From positions 62,001 to 126,000 of IMG/VR virus record IMGVR_UViG_3300032401_000690: a stretch of 64,000 bases of DNA; one strand, given 5' to 3'. This document shows positions 11,652 to 62,451 of this stretch, piece by piece. The translations under genes and the position numbers were made by a program. This stretch comes from a virus. Position 1 is the stretch's first letter. Each line of letters starts with the position of its first letter. The notes under the pieces were generated by a model. It was not told where the DNA came from and searched no databases. It saw nothing but the letters and a program-made list of their open reading frames with translations.

Positions 11652-11753
11652 ATTTATTTATGGGTTAAATTATAGGTTTCCTCCGACTGTTATTTTTATA
11701 TCATACGAGACACAACTGGTGGGTGTCCCCCCAAATTATAGGTATCTTCCAAC
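11652..11753 (-). repeat. Interspersed-repeat locus, distal end (R1 and R2)
   Basis: R2 (11718-11753) is a diverged 36-base copy of the locus repeat, and its complement codes for the C-terminus LEDTYNLGGHPP of the adjacent small gene. A 30-base spacer (11688-11717) separates it from R1, of which only a 23-base half (11665-11687) is recognisable, with further changes. Decay at this end and perfect copies at the other end is the pattern of a CRISPR trailer versus leader. Confidence 0.75.
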
Positions 11754-12007
11754 CATATACTGAGTATATCCCTTGTTTGTGAGTCATCTAACCCAAAAAT
11801 GTTTTTAAAAAACGACCAAAGTCTTTCTCTATTTATAAACACAAACCCATTTTTAATATTATGACGATAGAAAAATAACGGTCTTAGGTCTCTATCAACA
11901 TAAAATGTTTTATCACCTTTAACCTCCGGAGTTAAATCACCAAACTCTTTGTGTAACCACTTAAACACCAATCTGTCCCTACTACTTTCAGTTATTATTA
12001 TTTTCAT
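11696..12007 (-). CDS. Array cassette protein A (103 aa), family with WL.KEFG.LTP motif
   Basis: The 103-residue protein is of unknown function. It opens MKIIITESSRDRLVFKWLHK and then EFGDLTP; these first 27 residues are identical to cassette protein B at 12286-12624. The middle (VKGDKTFYVDRDLRPLF and FGLDDSQTRDILSIWLEDTYNL) is diverged from it. The C-terminal LEDTYNLGGHPP is encoded by repeat R2 of the array, and the protein ends five residues later inside the spacer. The gene body between repeats (11754-12013) is exactly 260 bases, like cassette B. The small size and KxLxxEFG-type helix suggest a compact alpha/beta domain that is also found at the C-terminus of the SOD fusion. No catalytic motif was seen. 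Confidence 0.6.
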   Translation of the reverse strand: MKIIITESSRDRLVFKWLHKEFGDLTPEVKGDKTFYVDRDLRPLFFYRHNIKNGFVFINRERLWSFFKNIFGLDDSQTRDILSIWLEDTYNLGGHPPVVSRMI

Positions 12008-12013
12008 ATCATT

Positions 12014-12370
12014 TTAAATTATAGGTCTCTTCCAACCTTAGGTACGCTTGATTTGAATGGAAGAAACCATGTGTGAGTCCCCTCAAATTATAGGTCTCTT
12101 CCAACTTTTACTATTAATAAAAACATCCTATTCTGGGTGTGAGTCCCCTCAAATTATAGGTCTCCTCCAACTACGCCAAGCTTTGCAAAGGAGACCAAGT
12201 AGGTGTGAATCCCCTTAAATTATAGGTCTCCTCCAACTATAGAGAGAAAAGTAGAATAGCCCAAGTTGGTGTGAATCCCCTTAAATTATAGGTCTCCTCC
12301 AACGGAATTGGAAATGTAAAGGGTTGCCCAAGTTGGTGTGAATCCCCTTAAATTATAGGTCTCCTCCAAC
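12014..12370 (-). CRISPR. CRISPR-like repeat-spacer block, repeats R3-R8, no cas genes
   Basis: On the plus strand the 36-base repeat begins GGTGTGAGTCCCCTC and ends TAGGTCTCTTCCAAC. Copies here: half repeat R3 12014-12036, then R4 12070-12105, R5 12136-12171, R6 12202-12237, R7 12268-12303, R8 12335-12370. Spacers are 33, 30, 30, 30 and 31 bases and differ from one another, except that the last two share GCCCAAGTT before the repeat. Two repeat subtypes exist: GAGTCCCCTC with CTCTTCC, and GAATCCCCTT with CTCCTCC; R5 is a hybrid. The sizes match CRISPR arrays, but no cas gene or anti-repeat was found, and the repeat equals coding sequence for LEETYNLRG. The repeat structure is certain; CRISPR function is not. 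Confidence 0.5.
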
Positions 12371-12624
12371 CATATAGTCAGAATCTCCTTTGTTTGCAAG
12401 TAACTCAGACCAAAAATAGAATCAAAAAATACCCAAATTCTGTCGTAATTTATATAAACATCCCTATTTTTTGAATCCTGGTAATACACAAATAACGGTT
12501 TTCGGTCCTCATCAACATAATATGTTTTATCATCTTTAACCACCGGAGTTAGATCACCAAACTCTTTGTGTAACCACTTAAACACCAATCTGTCCCTACT
12601 ACTTTCAGTTATTATTATTTTCAT
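12286..12624 (-). CDS. Array cassette protein B (112 aa), paralogue of cassette A
   Basis: The 112-residue paralogue of cassette A has an identical N-terminus (MKIIITESSRDRLVFKWLHK) and is closer in its middle to the SOD-fusion C-terminal domain: KPLFVYYQD, YDRIWVFFDSIFGL and QTKEILTIW. Residues WLEETYNLRGFTP are encoded by repeat R8. Because the next spacer is 31 bases, the frame shifts, and repeat R7 is read as VGGDL followed by a stop. The 260-base body (12371-12630) lies between half repeat R9 and full repeat R8. Each repeat carries TATAAT on the minus strand, so half repeat R9, 7 bases before an ATG pair, might act as its promoter. Function unknown. Confidence 0.6.
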   Translation of the reverse strand: MKIIITESSRDRLVFKWLHKEFGDLTPVVKDDKTYYVDEDRKPLFVYYQDSKNRDVYINYDRIWVFFDSIFGLSYLQTKEILTIWLEETYNLRGFTPTWATLYISNSVGGDL

Positions 12625-12630
12625 ATCATT

Positions 12631-12786
12631 TTAAATTATAGGTCTCTTCCAACCAATTTACAGAAACTTGACGGTATATAATTGGGTGTGAGTCCCCTCA
12701 AATTATAGGTCTCTTCCAACGGGATTTGCATAATCACCTGCCCATGCACTGGTGTGAGTCCCCTCAAATTATAGGTCTCTTCCAAC
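12631..12786 (-). repeat. Interspersed-repeat locus, proximal end (R9-R11)
   Basis: Half repeat R9 is at 12631-12653, then full repeats R10 (12685-12720) and R11 (12751-12786), which are identical to each other. Spacers are 31 and 30 bases and unrelated to the others. R11, one spacer and R10 are translated in frame at the C-terminus of the SOD fusion, because 36+30 is a multiple of three. This end has the best-preserved copies. Confidence 0.8.
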
Positions 12787-14129
12787 CATACCTTCAGAAT
12801 CTCCTGTGTTTGCGGGCGTTTCAGACCAAAAATAGAATCAAAAAATACCCAAATTCTGTCGTAATCTACATAAATAAACCCATTTTTTTCATCCTGGTAA
12901 TACACAAATAACGGTTTTCTGTTCTCATCAACATAAAAGGTTTTATCACGTTTAACTACGGGTGTTAGATTTCCAAACTCTTTGTTTAACCACTTTAATG
13001 CGGATTTAAATTTAGGATCAACCGATTCGTTAATTGATTCTTTTTTACTTGTTCTCAAGTCATAAAGACTAGTAACGAATTCCCAATTAATATGGTTCCA
13101 AAATTTATTAATATATTGGTCTCGTTTATTTTTATATCTTAAATAATATGCGTGTTCCCAAAGATCTAATCCAAGGATTGGATATCCACCATTAACATCA
13201 TTCATTAATGGGTTATCTTGGTTTGGTGTTGTAATAATTTTTAATCTATTAGTTTTTGTTAAAACCAACCATACCCAACCTGAACCAAAACTATCCAAGG
13301 CGGCCTTATTAAATTCTTCTTTAAAATTTTTAAATGATTTGTATTGGTTTGTTATTTTATCTAAAAGATCCCCTTTTAAAGTTTGTTTTTTTGGGGTTAA
13401 CATTTTCCAAAACAATGCGTGATTAAATGCACCACCGGCATTATTTCTGACCTTTGTATTAAATTTAGTGATAGTTTTAATGATGTCCTCAAGTTCTATA
13501 TCACCTTTTCTACTTGATAATGCATCATTTAATTTTTTAACATAACCTTTATAATGTTTGTTATAATGAACATCCATTGTTTCAGGATCAACAAATTGTT
13601 TTAATGCCGAATATGAATAGGGTAATTTCTCAATACCAATTTTTTTCATTTCGGTAATGAATTCTTTTTGAATGTTAATTTTGTCTGTTAATACGATTTG
13701 TTCTGTTAAGATATCAATTCTATTTGAAATGGGTTTTAACCCCTCATAAACAATATTAACCATTTCGGGGTGTTCTTTTTCAAACATTTTAATTAATCGT
13801 CCAGCACCAGCATTTGCTTCATCCTCATTTTTTCCACCAATATCTTGACCAATTTCCCGTTTTAATATGGTCATTTGATGTTCGTGAATCCATTCGTGTG
13901 CAAGAGTTCTTAAGATATCTCGGTTCAACCGACCTTTAGTTAAAATTTTAATACCAAACTCATCACTTCTACTACCAGTCGTCATTTGACCTGTGCGATC
14001 ACCCAAGAAAGAAACTAATATATCATTCTTTAATGGATATTTTTCATTTAAAAACTTAATAAATTTTTTGGCAAGATCCTTACTTTCTTGGGACATTGAG
14101 CATTTAATATGTTTAATAGATACTTTCAT
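12636..14129 (-). CDS. HExxH metallopeptidase-like / Fe-Mn superoxide dismutase fusion with array-family C-terminal domain
   Basis: The protein has 497 residues in three parts. Residues 1-135 contain HEWIH at 78-82 with acidic residues in NEDEANAG (101-108), a zincin-like arrangement. Residues about 169-355 are an Fe/Mn superoxide dismutase: LPYSYSALKQFVDPETMDVH at the start, with all four metal ligands present as H188, H237 (GAFNHALFW), D322 and H326 (LDLWEHAYYLRY). Residues about 370-460 are a copy of the array cassette protein, and residues 449-482 are repeat-spacer-repeat read in frame (LEETYNLRG, VHGQVIMQIP, LEETYNLRG). Superoxide dismutase converts superoxide to peroxide and oxygen. The peptidase part may cleave a phage or host protein. 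No signal peptide is seen. Domain calls are firm for SOD, moderate for the peptidase. Confidence 0.85.
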   Translation of the reverse strand: MKVSIKHIKCSMSQESKDLAKKFIKFLNEKYPLKNDILVSFLGDRTGQMTTGSRSDEFGIKILTKGRLNRDILRTLAHEWIHEHQMTILKREIGQDIGGKNEDEANAGAGRLIKMFEKEHPEMVNIVYEGLKPISNRIDILTEQIVLTDKINIQKEFITEMKKIGIEKLPYSYSALKQFVDPETMDVHYNKHYKGYVKKLNDALSSRKGDIELEDIIKTITKFNTKVRNNAGGAFNHALFWKMLTPKKQTLKGDLLDKITNQYKSFKNFKEEFNKAALDSFGSGWVWLVLTKTNRLKIITTPNQDNPLMNDVNGGYPILGLDLWEHAYYLRYKNKRDQYINKFWNHINWEFVTSLYDLRTSKKESINESVDPKFKSALKWLNKEFGNLTPVVKRDKTFYVDENRKPLFVYYQDEKNGFIYVDYDRIWVFFDSIFGLKRPQTQEILKVWLEETYNLRGLTPVHGQVIMQIPLEETYNLRGLTPNYIPSSFCKLVGRDL

Positions 14130-15972: not shown

Positions 15973-16935
15973 ATGAGTAAATTTGAATTATATGGTTTGT
16001 ATTGTCCGTTAACCAACGAAATAAAATATGTTGGTATAACAAAAAATGGATTAAATAAAAGATTAAATAGTCATTTAAGAAAACCAACTAACGAATTTAT
16101 TGGTAAATGGTTTAAAGATTTAAAAAACAATAATAACAGACCAATTATTAAATTAATAAAAGAGTGTGACTCTTACGAAGATTTATTACTTTCCGAATAT
16201 AATGAAATAAAAAAACTTAGGGAATTAAAAATAGATATTTATAATTTAACTGACGGTGGGGATATTAATCCAATGTTGGGTAAATCACACACTTCCGAGT
16301 CTAAACTTAAAATGTCTTTATTCCATAAGGGGAAAATAATAAGTGACGAACAAAGACAAAAACAAAAAGAAACGTTAAATAGGTTGTGGTCAAATAAATT
16401 ATGGTCTGAAAAAATGAAACAAAAAATGTCGGAAAATACATCGGGGAGTAATAACCCAAATTGGAAGGGAGGGGTAACTAATGAGAAATGTTTATGTGGT
16501 AATAAAAAGAGTTTTGGTAGAAAAACTTGTATGTCTTGTAGGGACGTAAATGGAATTAAAAATCCGTTTTTTGGTAAAAAACACAGCGAAAAAACATTAA
16601 ATATATTAAGAGAAAAAAGTAAAAAATATGGGAAGGAAAACCCTAATTTCAAATACGATATTAATGAAGAAGAATTATATAATTTATATATTAAAAATAA
16701 TAAAACAGTAGTTGAGATTAGTAATCAATTTAATTGTGCGATAAACACAATAAATAAAAAATTAAGACAATATAATATATATAAACCAAAATCTAATATT
16801 TATAATTTAGTGATTGATGATGTAAAAAATTATTTACTAAATAATTTAAACTATATTCAGATTGGTTATATCTATGGGTGTAGTAATAAAATTATACATA
16901 AATTTGTAAAAAAACATAACTTATATGTCAAATAA
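15973..16935 (+). CDS. GIY-YIG homing endonuclease with NUMOD3 motifs
   Basis: The protein has 320 residues. The N-terminal GIY-YIG nuclease reads YGLYCPLTNEIKYVGITKNG (residues about 6-25), followed by a conserved Arg and a Glu (ECDSYEDLLLSEY). Downstream are NUMOD3 DNA-binding motifs: NPMLGKSHTSESKLKMS near 96, GSNNPNWKGG and NPFFGKKHSEKTL near 196. A C-terminal helix-turn-helix segment (TVVEISNQFNCAINTINKKL) follows. This is a freestanding homing endonuclease that would cut a cognate site in related phages. Its last 11 bases overlap the start of the neck gene at 16925, so it has inserted right against that gene. It is even more A+T rich than its neighbours. Confidence 0.88.
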   Translation: MSKFELYGLYCPLTNEIKYVGITKNGLNKRLNSHLRKPTNEFIGKWFKDLKNNNNRPIIKLIKECDSYEDLLLSEYNEIKKLRELKIDIYNLTDGGDINPMLGKSHTSESKLKMSLFHKGKIISDEQRQKQKETLNRLWSNKLWSEKMKQKMSENTSGSNNPNWKGGVTNEKCLCGNKKSFGRKTCMSCRDVNGIKNPFFGKKHSEKTLNILREKSKKYGKENPNFKYDINEEELYNLYIKNNKTVVEISNQFNCAINTINKKLRQYNIYKPKSNIYNLVIDDVKNYLLNNLNYIQIGYIYGCSNKIIHKFVKKHNLYVK

Positions 16936-22715: not shown

Positions 22716-24236
22716 ATGAAAATAGAACTTAAATGTACCCATTGTAATCAATTATTCACAACGGATTATAAACACAGAGATAAACAATTTTGTGATAGAA
22801 CTTGTTATTTTAATTATGCAAGAGAAAATAAATTACTCGGTAAAACAAAGGATCCTAATGTTAGAGAAGAAAGAGAGTGCGTTCAATGTGGAATTAATTT
22901 TACTGAAAGAATAAAATATGAACGTAAACTATGTTCCAATGAGTGTAGAGAAAATTGGCAATTAATTGAATCTAATAAAAACAATAGAATAGATAAATCA
23001 AAAAAGAAACTATTGGAAAAATATGGTGTTGACTCAATATTCAAATTAGATGATTTTAAAAAAAATAAATCTCCAAGGTTTTTTGAAAAATATGGTGTTT
23101 ATCACCCAATGCTTGTACCAAAATTTGTTTCAAAACTTCAAGACACAATACGGAAAAAACATTTAATTAATTTAATACCAAAATTAGAAGATAAAAAAAT
23201 TGAACTATTAGATGATTATGTGACAAATAAATGTGGTAGTACTTCATATGTGTACAATTTTAAATGTAAGATTTGTGATAATATCTTTAGTAGTACCGTA
23301 ATGGGTTCGGGTAAAATCCCCATATGCCGTAAATGTTATCCAATAATTAAAAATTCAAATTTAGAACAAATCATTAAAGATTTTTTAAATAAAAAAAACA
23401 TTAAACACATAGATGGTGATAGGACAATATTAGAAGGGAAAGAAATTGATATTTTTTTACCTGAATTTAATTTAGGTATTGAAATTAATGGTAATTACTT
23501 TCATTCAGAGTTAGGTGGGGATAAAACAAAATTTTACCACATTAATAAAACAACTTTATCAAATAATAAAAACACAACATTAATACATTTTTATGAAGAT
23601 GAGATATTGTTAAAAACGGATATTGTGATTTCAAAATTATCAAGTAAATTAAATTTAAATAACACAATTTACGGTAGAAAGTGTGTTATTAAAGAAATCA
23701 CTAAAAAAGAATCAACTTTTTTTTTAAATGAAAATCATTTACAAGGTAATACAATTGATAAAATTAGATATGGACTTTTTTATGAAAATAATTTAGTGTC
23801 GGTAATGACGTTTGGTAAAAAAAGAAAATCGTTAGGAAATAAAATTAAAAATGATGGGGAATACGAGTTGGTTAGATTTTGTAATAAAAAATTCATAAAT
23901 GTGGTGGGGGGATTTTCAAAAATTTTAAAACATTTTATAAAGTTACATTCCCCAATCAAAATAGAAACTTTTGCCGATATTCGTTGGTCAGGGGTTAACT
24001 CATTAAAAACAGTTTACCACAAAAATAATTTTACATATGTAAGACAAACACCACCCAATTATTGGTATATTAAAACGGATAAATATATTAATAGACAACA
24101 TAGATTCTCATTTAGAAAAGATGTATTAGTAAGAGAGGGGTACGATAAAGAATTGACTGAATGGGATATTATGAAATTAAAAGGTTATGATAGAATATGG
24201 GATTGTGGGTCATTAAAATATGAACTTATTTTATAA
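22716..24236 (+). CDS. Homing endonuclease, Vsr-like (EDxHD/PD-(D/E)XK fold) with zinc fingers
   Basis: The protein has 506 residues. The N-terminal half holds several CxxC zinc-binding pairs: LKCTHCNQLF with FCDRTC, ECVQCG with LCSNEC, and FKCKICDN with ICRKCYP near 187-208. Near residues 243-265, EIDIFLPEFNLGIEINGNYFHSE-type sequence supplies the acidic and His residues of Vsr-like nucleases, as in the EDxHD homing endonucleases (I-Bth0305I type). The C-terminal ~200 residues include ETFADIRWSGVNSL and a Tyr/Trp-rich NYWYIKTDKY segment and probably bind DNA. It is flanked by two terminators between sheath and HAD-like genes, which indicates a freestanding insertion. Its codon use is strongly A+T biased (AAA, AAT). 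Confidence 0.78.
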   Translation: MKIELKCTHCNQLFTTDYKHRDKQFCDRTCYFNYARENKLLGKTKDPNVREERECVQCGINFTERIKYERKLCSNECRENWQLIESNKNNRIDKSKKKLLEKYGVDSIFKLDDFKKNKSPRFFEKYGVYHPMLVPKFVSKLQDTIRKKHLINLIPKLEDKKIELLDDYVTNKCGSTSYVYNFKCKICDNIFSSTVMGSGKIPICRKCYPIIKNSNLEQIIKDFLNKKNIKHIDGDRTILEGKEIDIFLPEFNLGIEINGNYFHSELGGDKTKFYHINKTTLSNNKNTTLIHFYEDEILLKTDIVISKLSSKLNLNNTIYGRKCVIKEITKKESTFFLNENHLQGNTIDKIRYGLFYENNLVSVMTFGKKRKSLGNKIKNDGEYELVRFCNKKFINVVGGFSKILKHFIKLHSPIKIETFADIRWSGVNSLKTVYHKNNFTYVRQTPPNYWYIKTDKYINRQHRFSFRKDVLVREGYDKELTEWDIMKLKGYDRIWDCGSLKYELIL

Positions 24237-43648: not shown

Positions 43649-44536
43649 ATGTGTGATTGTAAAGAAACTATTGGCCATAAAACTTCTTGTTTTATTAAAT
43701 GTGATGAATGTGATAAAATTATTAAATATAAGGCTTTATCTACATATAAGACATCCATTAGACGAAGTAAAACTTTTGGGTTATGTTCGTCTTGTTTAAA
43801 GAATGGGGAAAGAAATCCGTTCTTCAATAAGAAACACACTAAAGAATCCATGGTTAGGATGGTTAAAACCTCAAATAATAGTGAAGAAAGAAAAAAATAT
43901 TACGAAAAAATAAGGTCAGAAGAATATAGAAAATATTTAAGTGATTGGATGAAAAAAAATAGTCCGATGAGAGGTAATTCATATTATAAAATATGGGTTC
44001 AAAAATATGGTGTCGATAAGGCCGATGAAATGAATAAAGAGTGTTCGTTAAAAAAATCGGTTAAAGGGGAAAAAAATTATTGGTTTGGTAAAACCCCCCC
44101 CTTTGGTTCTGGAAATGGTTGGTCAGGATGGTACAATGGGTGGTATTTTAGAAGTTTATTGGAGTTGTCGTATATGGTCAACGTAATAGAAAAATATGGG
44201 TTTAATTGGGAGACGGGAGAATCTAATAAATTTAAAATTGTTTTTAAACATAAAGATGTGGTGAAGAATTATTTTCCGGATTTTGTATTAAATAATAAAT
44301 ATATGGTTGAATGTAAACCAAAAAGATTATGGAATACCGATTTAATTATAAATAAAAAAAACGCAGCTGAAGAATTCTGTCAAAAAAATGACTTAATCTA
44401 TAAGTTAAGAGATATACCAAAAATGTCTGATGATGAGATATTATCATTATATGTAAATGGGGAATTAATTTGGATAGAAAGATACCGAATAAAATTCCAA
44501 GATAGAATTTTAAAAAAGAGTAACAAAATATTGTAG
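43649..44536 (+). CDS. Homing endonuclease, PD-(D/E)XK type with NUMOD3-like motifs
   Basis: The protein has 295 residues. The N-terminus has Cys pairs that may bind zinc (FIKCDECDKII and LCSSCLKNGE). NUMOD3-like motifs follow (NPFFNKKHTKESMVRMVKTS near 52 and GEKNYWFGKTPPFGSGNGWS). The nuclease core is YFPDFVLNNKYMVECKPK (about 209-226), giving the D ... E-x-K triad. The upstream FRSLLELSYM helix and W-E-TGESNKF strand fit the same fold. It is a freestanding nuclease gene between uvsX and the exonuclease gene; such enzymes in T4-like phages cut related genomes near their own insertion site. Assignment by motif. Confidence 0.75.
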   Translation: MCDCKETIGHKTSCFIKCDECDKIIKYKALSTYKTSIRRSKTFGLCSSCLKNGERNPFFNKKHTKESMVRMVKTSNNSEERKKYYEKIRSEEYRKYLSDWMKKNSPMRGNSYYKIWVQKYGVDKADEMNKECSLKKSVKGEKNYWFGKTPPFGSGNGWSGWYNGWYFRSLLELSYMVNVIEKYGFNWETGESNKFKIVFKHKDVVKNYFPDFVLNNKYMVECKPKRLWNTDLIINKKNAAEEFCQKNDLIYKLRDIPKMSDDEILSLYVNGELIWIERYRIKFQDRILKKSNKIL

Positions 44537-49397: not shown

Positions 49398-49904
49398 ATG
49401 TTATTAAAGGAATTGGCAATTAGAAAAGAAAAACTTGTAAAAGGAAAAAACAGGTATTATCTTTATATTTTTAAATGTGGGTGTGGTAAAGAACTATTGG
49501 TACAATCTTCAGCATTAAAAACACATTCTGGAAAATGTATAAGATGTGCGCAACTTAAAGAACCTTATAAGTACATTTATAATGAATTAAAATTACATAA
49601 AAGAAATGATACTAAGGTTGAGTTAACATTTGAGGAATTTCTTGATGTAATTAAAGTAAGGGACTGTCATTATTGTGGTGAGGAGTTAAATTATGAAGAA
49701 TATTCTAGAGTTTGGGGGAAAATAAATAGTAGGGCTCACCAATTAGATAGAAAAGATAATAATTTGGGGTATAGTAAGGAAAATGTTGTTACTTGTTGTT
49801 GGGAGTGTAATAGGTTAAAATCTAACAGATTTACTTATGAAGAGTTCATTCAATTATCGCCCATCTTAAATAAAATACGAATTGAAAAGAAAGAATTAAA
49901 ATGA
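49398..49904 (+). CDS. HNH homing endonuclease
   Basis: The protein has 168 residues. The nuclease core is CHYCGEELNYEE (about 90-101), then AHQLDRKDNNLGYSKENVVTCCW (about 113-135) and ECNRLKSNRFTYEEF: Cys pairs bracket a zinc, HQLDR gives the first His/Asp and N..(C)..CN the following Asn. This is a standard HNH fold. An N-terminal GCGKELLVQSSALKTHSG with CIRCAQ forms another Cys pair. It is a freestanding endonuclease next to the reductase gene, a favourite neighbourhood for such elements in T4-like phages. Its end overlaps the next start by four bases. Confidence 0.85.
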   Translation: MLLKELAIRKEKLVKGKNRYYLYIFKCGCGKELLVQSSALKTHSGKCIRCAQLKEPYKYIYNELKLHKRNDTKVELTFEEFLDVIKVRDCHYCGEELNYEEYSRVWGKINSRAHQLDRKDNNLGYSKENVVTCCWECNRLKSNRFTYEEFIQLSPILNKIRIEKKELK

Positions 49905-60329: not shown

Positions 60330-61502
60330 ATGGAAGAACAAAAGTATTATTTTACAGTATCTCCTGAGAATATAATTGGGGATCTTCTTACCGTAAATTG
60401 GACGGGTGGGACTGATATTGCTTATAATGTGGATCCTTGTTGTCCAATAACAGGGATAACAGAAACAACGACAACGGGAACTGTTGGTGTTTATACTGGG
60501 ATGACATATGTGTTATCGGGTGGAACAAATGGTGAATCATTATTAACGGGACTTACAATTCCAATAATGATAACACAAACTGCGGTTGATATTGGTTATT
60601 ATTCGGTTTTTGATGGGGCAATAATCCAAAAAGATGTTATTACAAATTTCTTATTTTCAGCAACAACTGGAAGTCCATATACCTATTATTTTTATAACAC
60701 TTCAGATGTTGAATTAAAAAAGTTTCTTGAGGTGACAACCTTTAAAGTTGATTGGGGGGATTTAACAACAATAGAGACAATTACAGGTGTTGCGCCATTA
60801 TCACATAATTACCCATTAGGTAATAATCAATATGTTATTACGATGACGGCAACATCACCTTGGGGCATATCAACAATATCAAAGACAATAACCGTTCCAT
60901 TTACGAATGTCCCAATATTGAACCCATCGGGTAATGCAACATTCACTCCTGCGGGAGGTAGTTGGGCATCAACACAATTTAATTATAATTATATCTACCC
61001 ATATGATGAGGGGATGGACATAAACGATTACTATAGTTATAACTACGTTCCTGTCCCATTTATTGTCTCAGGATATACACAATCATCAATAAATGATTTG
61101 GCTCAATATGGTCCAAAATATACCTTAATTGATGGTAAATTTAAAGTTGGTGTTCAAGTTACTGGTACCTCAAATAGTGTTGGTACTTATTGGGGTCCAG
61201 ATCCAACAAACACGTATGTGTCATATACAATAGATGGTATTGATTATTATGATTATGAGGATGGAACAACATTATATGTTCTTCCCTCTTCAGGTTTCAC
61301 TCCTGATGACTTAATATTATCGGCAATAACTAAAAATGAGGCATTGTTAAATGTTATTGATCAACCCGAAGTCCAAACAGATGTATTCATTGAACGGGGT
61401 AAAAATTCGGCATTGGAACGAGTACAAAGACTTGGGGAAGTAGATAATGTTGGGGGCCTAATTAAGTACGGGTATGGATTTTTTAATGTTGAAAAACAAT
61501 AA
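60330..61502 (+). CDS. Baseplate-region protein with PKD-like domain
   Basis: The protein has 390 residues. Around residues 135-192 a PKD-like Ig fold is visible: FKVDWGDLTTIETITGVAPL, SHNYPLGNNQYVITMTATSP and ISKTITVPF, with the DWGD and H.Y hallmarks. The N-terminal ~100 residues are Thr/Gly-rich (TTTGTVGVYTGMTYVLSGGT). The C-terminal ~30 residues (DVFIERGKNSALERVQRLGE, VGGLIKYGYGFFNVEKQ) resemble a conserved assembly tail. PKD domains in phage tails usually project and bind sugars or proteins. An HNH gene follows it. Confidence 0.55.
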   Translation: MEEQKYYFTVSPENIIGDLLTVNWTGGTDIAYNVDPCCPITGITETTTTGTVGVYTGMTYVLSGGTNGESLLTGLTIPIMITQTAVDIGYYSVFDGAIIQKDVITNFLFSATTGSPYTYYFYNTSDVELKKFLEVTTFKVDWGDLTTIETITGVAPLSHNYPLGNNQYVITMTATSPWGISTISKTITVPFTNVPILNPSGNATFTPAGGSWASTQFNYNYIYPYDEGMDINDYYSYNYVPVPFIVSGYTQSSINDLAQYGPKYTLIDGKFKVGVQVTGTSNSVGTYWGPDPTNTYVSYTIDGIDYYDYEDGTTLYVLPSSGFTPDDLILSAITKNEALLNVIDQPEVQTDVFIERGKNSALERVQRLGEVDNVGGLIKYGYGFFNVEKQ

Positions 61503-61521
61503 TTTTAAGTATTTATTGAAT

Positions 61522-62451
61522 ATGAGTTATAATAAGAACTGTGGTAATTGTGGTAAGATCCAAACCTACACAACTAAAGGTAGGTTAGATTGTTCTATCC
61601 GAGAAAATTGGGTGTGTAATAGTTGCTCGTCAACTCATATGAAAAAAATATATGGTGATGATGTTATAACTAATGTGGTTGACTTATATGTTAATGGTAA
61701 TAGTTTTAGTAAAATAAGTTTAATATTAAAGATTAAAAGAGATAATGTTAAAAATATTTTAATTGAAAAGAATATTTGGGTTGAAAATAGGGACGATATT
61801 AAAAAAGAATTTAATGATGTTGATATTGAGAATATTATTAAAAAATATAATAGTGGGTTGTCGGTGAAAAAAATATCTAATTTATATGGTGTTAGTGTTG
61901 GACCAATTAAAAGAATTTTAAAAAATTCAAATTTATTAAGAAAAGGTCTTAGTGATGGTAAAAAAATTGTATTATCAGATGAACAGATATTACTTATTAA
62001 GGATTTATATTTAAATGAATTTAAAAATTGTGAAGAAATTAGTTATCAATTAGGTTTAACAAAATCATTTGTTGATAAATATTTGCGTAATTGTGGGTAT
62101 AGAAGGAATAAAAGTGAGGGGGTTTCAGTTGGATCCATATATAAATATCACGGTATTAAATATAACGAATATTTAAAAATTATCCCCGATTTGGATAAAT
62201 ATAAACTTGATGTCTCAAAAATGACTCGTCAACAACCAATACATAATTTATTGAATTACGATAAAAGAGGAAATTCGGGTGTTGAAGGGGCATATCACTT
62301 AGACCATAAATTCTCAATATCAGAAGGGTTTAAAAATAGAATACCTCCCGAAATAATTGGTGGTATAAAAAACCTTGAATTTATTACTTGGGAGGAAAAT
62401 ATAAAAAAAAGAACTAATTGTTCAATAACAATAAATGAACTAATAAATTAA
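61522..62451 (+). CDS. HNH-type homing endonuclease with helix-turn-helix repeats
   Basis: The protein has 309 residues from the ATG at 61522, after a TATTTATT element; an in-frame ATG at 61474 lies inside the previous gene and was not chosen. The N-terminus has CGNCGK and CNSC Cys pairs. Three helix-turn-helix repeats follow: VVDLYVNGNSFSKISLILKI, IIKKYNSGLSVKKISNLYGV and IKDLYLNEFKNCEEISYQLG. The C-terminal AYHLDHKFSISEGFKNRIPP near 255-275, then GIKNLEFITWEENIKKR, gives an H..DH...(N)...N nuclease core. It is a freestanding element within the wedge operon. Confidence 0.72.
   Translation: MSYNKNCGNCGKIQTYTTKGRLDCSIRENWVCNSCSSTHMKKIYGDDVITNVVDLYVNGNSFSKISLILKIKRDNVKNILIEKNIWVENRDDIKKEFNDVDIENIIKKYNSGLSVKKISNLYGVSVGPIKRILKNSNLLRKGLSDGKKIVLSDEQILLIKDLYLNEFKNCEEISYQLGLTKSFVDKYLRNCGYRRNKSEGVSVGSIYKYHGIKYNEYLKIIPDLDKYKLDVSKMTRQQPIHNLLNYDKRGNSGVEGAYHLDHKFSISEGFKNRIPPEIIGGIKNLEFITWEENIKKRTNCSITINELIN

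Follow-up and report, generated by a model that had tools for sequence, protein, structure and literature searches.

CRISPR-like arrays built from the coding 3′ end of a phage gene: putative acceptor sites for fragments of host chromosomes

Introduction

How does an array with the dimensions of clustered regularly interspaced short palindromic repeats (CRISPR) come to stand in a phage genome when its repeat is the coding 3′ end of a gene? This question is raised by a locus in the 144,147-base IMG/VR virus record IMGVR_UViG_3300032401_000690, of which bases 62,001–126,000 were analysed (64,000 nucleotides, hereafter the window, to which coordinates refer unless another record is named). The record contains genes for DNA polymerase B, tail sheath, and baseplate and is therefore assigned to a large tailed phage. 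In our reading, to which we give a probability of about two in three, the coding 3′ end of a duplicated phage gene serves as a CRISPR-type acceptor site into which pieces of host DNA are inserted, probably by the CRISPR-associated (Cas) proteins Cas1-Cas2 of the host acting in trans. Comparison of related loci revealed unit-wise change at the gene-proximal end of the arrays, repeats that copy the end of their own gene, and a host-chromosome origin of those spacers for which a match was obtained. The carriers form a group of uncultured viruses whose hosts are bacteria of the Bacteroidota.

Anatomy of the arrays

The window contains eight full repeats of 36 bases, three half repeats, and eight mutually unrelated spacers, which are 30, 33, 30, 30, 30, 31, 31, and 30 bases long (S1 to S8, in order of position). 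The repeat core occurs 11 times at up to three mismatches, the expectation from shuffling being zero. Near-identical repeats in the size range of 23–50 bases and unique spacers of similar size correspond to the anatomy of CRISPR arrays, as the original prediction had claimed from the same repeats and spacers; it was also right in recognizing the complement of the repeat as the in-frame C-terminus LEETYNLRG(L/F)TP of the local proteins, which are encoded on the minus strand, and in describing one decayed end (repeat R2) and one perfect end (R10 identical to R11). The interspersed array is real, but it is not a single one: three separate small arrays are present, each located behind its own gene copy on the minus strand. 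In both other frames the repeats contain stop codons. The half repeats, starting at 11665, 12014, and 12631, correspond to the first 21–23 bases of the repeat in gene sense. Scans with Rfam and for transfer RNAs gave no matches.

Read along the minus strand, array 1 begins within gene 1 (12636..14129), a large open reading frame (ORF) composed of an N-terminal region with an HEWIHEHQ motif, Fe/Mn superoxide dismutase domains (Pfam Sod_Fe_N/C), and the array-associated domain. The 3′ end of this domain is the full repeat R11 (12751..12786; LEETYNLRGLTP), and the ORF continues via S8 (12721..12750, 30 bases), R10 (12685..12720), and S7 (12654..12684, 31 bases) into the terminal half repeat R9 (12631..12653), which is located directly upstream of the start of gene 2. 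Gene 2 (12286..12624) encodes an array-associated domain protein of 112 amino acids, whose domain ends with R8 (12335..12370) and whose tail is derived from S6 (12304..12334, 31 bases). Array 2 then proceeds through R7 (12268..12303), S5 (12238..12267, 30 bases), R6 (12202..12237), S4 (12172..12201, 30 bases), R5 (12136..12171), S3 (12106..12135, 30 bases), R4 (12070..12105, one base different from R10 and R11), and S2 (12037..12069, 33 bases) to the terminal half repeat R3 (12014..12036), directly upstream of gene 3. This gene (11696..12007) encodes a diverged domain protein of 103 amino acids, the coding end of which is the decayed full repeat R2 (11718..11753); array 3 is completed by S1 (11688..11717, 30 bases) and the terminal half repeat R1 (11665..11687). 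A fourth gene with an array is located beyond the window (143,740–144,147 of the record; L009 5741–6148), and the record ends inside this array, the repeats of which probably stopped the assembly. As a separate observation on the spacers of array 2, two neighbours in the regions 12172–12201 and 12238–12334 share their first nine bases (AACTTGGGC, gene sense), and a third one there holds GGTCTCC, the complement of a part of the repeat.

The gene family

Scanning IMG/VR by protein and, separately, by repeat provided 23 loci and 45 stretches with 66 distinct gene copies. Of the 66, 54 are followed, about 66 bases past the gene-end repeat, by one or more repeats or half repeats, a picture different from that of a single repeat devoid of spacers. 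From these loci, 89 distinct spacers of 29–33 bases were parsed, and 41 of them have a length of exactly 30 bases. The family domain comprises about 97 amino acids (about 85 in gene 1) and ends with WLxETYNLxGxTP. Diverged members retain the C-terminal pattern WLxExYxLxGxTP although their DNA is different (LDEVYGLTGLTP in L032 and L033, LEETLKLKGYTP in L044), and their repeats track their own gene, which suggests that the motif is a protein motif from which the arrays are built. Among the outlying members, L058 and the minus strand of L071 encode longer proteins with the same ending. For the domain protein, an α-β4-α-α fold is predicted (predicted local distance difference test score 90), and its relatives are exclusively unnamed phage proteins. 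Tandem duplication of the gene (family D1) is evident in the window.

Several members of the family show peculiarities of their own. The superoxide dismutase domain of gene 1 lies within a larger phage protein fused to the array domain, and long ORFs ending in the array domain are also found in L011, L013, and L054. In L015 (834–1520), an in-frame array joins two domain copies into one ORF of 865 amino acids, so that spacers and repeats became protein. In L071 (9118–9322), about 200 inserted bases without Rfam or plasmid match stand in place of the first part of the last repeat. In L059, L078, L040, L054, and L041, the length of a G run near the terminal half repeat, after AAATTTAAA or a similar sequence, varies, which in near-identical phages could represent a slippage site or a sequencing error.

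Change of the arrays between relatives

The closest comparison is that of L059 with L078, which are identical at 1429 of 1434 aligned positions (99.6%). Relative to L059, an exact extra unit of 67 bases, consisting of a 36-base repeat and a 31-base spacer, is present between the gene and the first spacer in L078, L054, and L035; by itself, this comparison fits the gain and the loss of a unit alike. The loci are metagenomic contigs, in which assembly errors at repeats are possible, but the recurrence of the single-unit difference on several contigs (with the unit, L078, L054, and L035; without it, L059 and L041, the latter at the start of its contig) speaks against an artefact of this kind. In a second comparison, L036, L071, and L072 are identical at 765–779 of 800 positions in their upstream flanks (95–98%) and have no spacer in common. 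The first two full repeats differ on average by 1.09 bases within an array and by 8.02 bases between arrays, and in 19 of 33 cases they are identical. Within the window, R8, R7, and R6 are identical, and R5 and R4 are divergent. At the opposite end, the spacer adjoining the last half repeat is common to nine loci; 28–30 bases of S1, the old and conserved gene-distal array end, recur in L012, L015, L031, L040, L041, L054, L059, and L078.

The change of a proximal unit, the turnover of spacers, the copying of the own gene end by the repeats, and the conservation of the distal spacer together indicate the polarity of CRISPR growth, in which a new unit with a duplicated repeat appears at the leader end, the gene here occupying the position of the leader. 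The proposal of successive insertions of short foreign DNA at the 3′ end of a gene, each with duplication of a coding target of 36 bases, is supported by these one-unit differences, turnovers, and own-end copies as well as by the host-chromosome spacers described below, and the alignment with related phages called for in the original prediction did reveal spacer change at the gene-proximal end.

Origin of the spacers

At E ≤ 5e-4, spacers matched 13 of 395 Bacteroidia genomes, and reversed spacers matched none of 395 genomes from the same kind of draw, the control letters being reversed but not complemented, which keeps base composition and loses codon structure. About 10 of 80 tested spacers match bacterial chromosomes, that is, DNA other than the carrier genome. 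The gene names given in the following were read from translated ORFs rather than taken from annotation tools. Two spacers of one array of phage L036 are exact in a single genome of 1.7 Mb (G754), namely s52 in a gene for an Xaa-Pro aminopeptidase (30/30) and s51 in one for a sensor histidine kinase (29/29). Spacer s71 matches a ribonucleotide reductase alpha chain gene (29/29 in G463 and G825, 26–28/29 in others). Further matches concern MiaB (s36, 28/29), an IS3-type transposase protein (s21, 29/30), PurA (s15, 28/30), a PaaA-like (s63, 28/30), a RhuM-like (s75, 27/30), and a DUF1015-like protein (s72, 28/30). The weaker matches in conserved genes mark a related host and not the host itself. 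With respect to the host genes, the matched spacers are sense and antisense in a ratio of 5:4.

Searches of the family's spacers against phage and host genomes, of the kind called for in the original prediction, gave matches in bacterial chromosomes and no convincing one in the phages tested. The own genome outside the arrays gave only matches of 14 bases, which is chance level; 40 sister phage records contained no convincing match outside the arrays, the INPHARED phages none above chance, and seven spacers searched as exact patterns had no exact match in IMG/VR outside the arrays. A sole extra IMG/VR match, L102, was rejected as a spacer target, with three mismatches to either spacer. In the records searched, no targeting of related viruses by the spacers was evident. 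In the reverse direction, spacers from the CRISPR arrays of three matched hosts gave only chance-level matches of 14–16 bases to these phages.

Proposed mechanism and candidate enzyme

According to our proposal, a gene 3′ end would serve as acceptor of a CRISPR-type acquisition reaction. Fragments of the host chromosome of about 30 bases, probably from degraded host DNA, would be inserted singly, each time duplicating the 36-base gene end, and the short array would grow out of the gene in such a manner that the newest spacer adjoins the gene and the oldest one the half repeat. The integrase may be the adaptation complex Cas1-Cas2 of the host, acting in trans on a repeat with ends like those of host repeats.

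The phages themselves offer no obvious enzyme of this type. Cas1 was not found in 26 phage records, many of them fragments, and for the 103 proteins of the own record no cas match is among the PADLOC matches shown, all of which are of SNF2-helicase-type models to one member. The absence of cas genes stated in the original prediction is thereby borne out for these records, which may be incomplete. Cas1 is present in 5 of the 13 matched genomes. Three matched genomes contain CRISPR repeats of 46–47 bases of the kind GTTGTGATTTGCTTTCAA...ACAAC, which we take from their sequence to be type II-C, and in three matched-genome arrays (L135, L138, and L139) the spacers have 29–31 bases, 43 of 52 being 30 bases long. 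The CRISPR repeat of G820 (GTTGTG...AAACACC) has GTTG and ACACC ends as in the phage repeats; beyond such short end motifs, no repeat identical or nearly identical to that of the host was obtained. In Flavobacterium columnare, proteins of the II-C locus adapt 36-base repeats of type VI-B in trans (PMC8092290). This trans adaptation, together with Cas1 in some matched genomes and the similar spacer sizes, makes host Cas1-Cas2 an economical candidate, and insertion in trans by this complex appears most likely.

Several points weigh against this reading. Cas1 was not seen in 8 of the 13 matched genomes, including the best-matched G754, though the genomes are possibly incomplete. A search of 84,980 GTDB species genomes of bacteria and archaea with a lightly degenerate pattern gave no instance of the phage repeat. 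Folding of the repeat is no better than that of shuffled sequence, and about nine protospacers show no evident protospacer-adjacent motif. Known host arrays grow beside a non-coding leader. Array growth was deduced by comparing sequences, integration itself being unseen.

With regard to a function, the arrays would most likely be used as an acceptor decoy that takes up spacers otherwise destined for storage in the array of the host. We give such a decoy about the same likelihood as a tolerated by-product, and a guide function a lower one. Conservation and multiplication of the site in many phages favour some use, although recent duplication would be another possible explanation. Only tentatively, and with more doubt than conviction, we suggest that the coding end of the gene family evolved to attract the host adaptation machinery: during infection, the phage genome instead of the host array would receive spacers cut from degraded host DNA, so that the host is not successfully vaccinated and the phage retains a record of its hosts.

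Alternative explanations

The arrays might instead be working guides, that is, phage-made CRISPR RNAs loaded into host Cas13b (VI-B) or Cas9 (II-C) and directed against host transcripts or DNA or, formerly, against rival phages. A 36-base repeat with a spacer of about 30 bases has type VI-B dimensions, and whole phage repeats align to VI-B-kind repeats, among them those of a Bergeyella locus with Cas13b beside the array (L091), with scores of 11–16 compared to about −4.8 ± 3.3 for shuffles; the VI-B-kind set was, however, retrieved with a pattern that fixes its ends. After trimming of the ends, the likeness decreased to p 0.001–0.09 against shuffles and to p 0.002–0.46 against synonymous codons, so that the weak interior is nearly explained by the peptide. 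The signal for homology to VI-B repeats is then marginal, and we treat the likeness as one of shared ends and equal dimensions. Constraint on the codons at the repeat ends (TTG in 60 of 63, ACA in 43 of 43, compared with pooled codons) is not counted as evidence, as the per-position profile contains many equally fixed domain codons. The lack of self-matching spacers is what selection against self-targeting would produce, but with a 5:4 ratio of sense to antisense half of the spacers could not target messenger RNA if the array is co-transcribed, the terminal spacers have no full 3′ repeat, and the hairpins of the repeat do not exceed those of shuffles. On balance, we regard a guide function as unlikely.

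Rather improbable, too, is a phage-encoded capture process independent of Cas proteins, in which, for example, the domain protein and a phage recombinase would insert host fragments at the own gene end. Array and gene co-occur in the loci examined, and such a process would be consistent with the failure to find the repeat in bacterial genomes or Cas1 in several matched hosts. The domain, however, matches no fold in the PDB and no Pfam family, no integrase was recognized near the array, and the tight size of 30 bases combined with a 36-base duplication is a signature of Cas1-Cas2.

It could also be imagined that the spacers diversify the C-terminus of the protein, the gene-proximal one acting as variable tail and the others as silent store. 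Insertions do alter the tail (...PPKIVYRGFKMVGRDL in L059 versus ...PPFWKL in L078 and L035), and the stop codons in the two other frames of the repeat fit this idea. Against it, 47 of 89 spacers have 29, 31, or 32 bases, which are not multiples of three; stops in the tail frame (28 of 85) are not clearly below those in the other five frames (31–38 of 85), without significant frame bias; and the matched spacers are host gene fragments from both strands. We therefore consider tail diversification highly improbable. An origin as an ordinary minisatellite, or by slippage of a coding repeat, for which the evident tandem gene duplication might speak and for which the original prediction had asked for spacers invariant in relatives, is scarcely credible, as the interspersed parts are mutually unrelated, are fully turned over between close relatives with near-identical flanks, and match bacterial chromosomes.

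Relation to known systems

Acceptance of host fragments at a coding gene end by Cas1-Cas2 would have a precedent in non-canonical integration outside arrays, where a new array can start from a repeat-like sequence; these are rare accidents, whereas conservation of the site described here extends over many phages and gene copies. Among virus-borne arrays, the mini-CRISPR arrays of SPV1 and SPV2 of Sulfolobales are intergenic, with host-like repeats and leaders and spacers against related viruses; they likewise lack cas genes in the virus genomes, show spacer turnover between close relatives, and presumably depend on host adaptation proteins in trans (PMC6858448), but the repeat found here is a coding gene end, was not detected in bacterial genomes, and is combined with matched spacers from host chromosomes. 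The array of the Nostoc cyanophage N-1 is also phage-borne and without cas genes, with repeats of 37 bases and spacers of 29–37 bases; its repeats are members of DR5, a CRISPR family that its hosts commonly carry, are accompanied by a leader, and are not described as coding (PMC4916379). The VI-B arrays of F. columnare share 36-base repeats with GTTG ends, a Bacteroidota background, and acquisition proteins encoded elsewhere, but are chromosomal arrays of a bacterium with a complete system and phage-derived spacers (PMC8092290). RNA anti-CRISPRs from solitary repeat units are phage CRISPR-like repeats without cas genes as well (PMC10651486); in contrast to these, the present arrays bear spacers with demonstrable turnover, and the repeat is inside a gene.

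Three tested differences thus separate these arrays from known virus-borne ones: the coding nature of the repeat, the failure to find a matching repeat in hosts, and the host-chromosome origin of the matched spacers. The suggestion that the locus is a cas-less phage array borrowing host Cas proteins holds for its anatomy and departs from the known phage arrays in the latter two respects. A phage array with a coding repeat was not found described in the open-access literature, subscription journals and preprints being outside the scope. If our reading is correct, this would be a CRISPR-type array with a protein-coding repeat and spacers that record host chromosomes, in which viruses are recipients of the acquisition reaction, and it would suggest counter-defence by diversion of acquisition. 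The spacers would then name the hosts of uncultured phages, the two exact matches tying one phage to one genome, and the minimum sequence at which an acquisition complex starts a new array would become testable.

Other features of the window

Outside the arrays, several ORFs resemble homing-endonuclease genes, one with a NUMOD3 match (15973–16935) and four recognized by eye (22716–24236, 43649–44536, 49398–49904, and 61474–62451).
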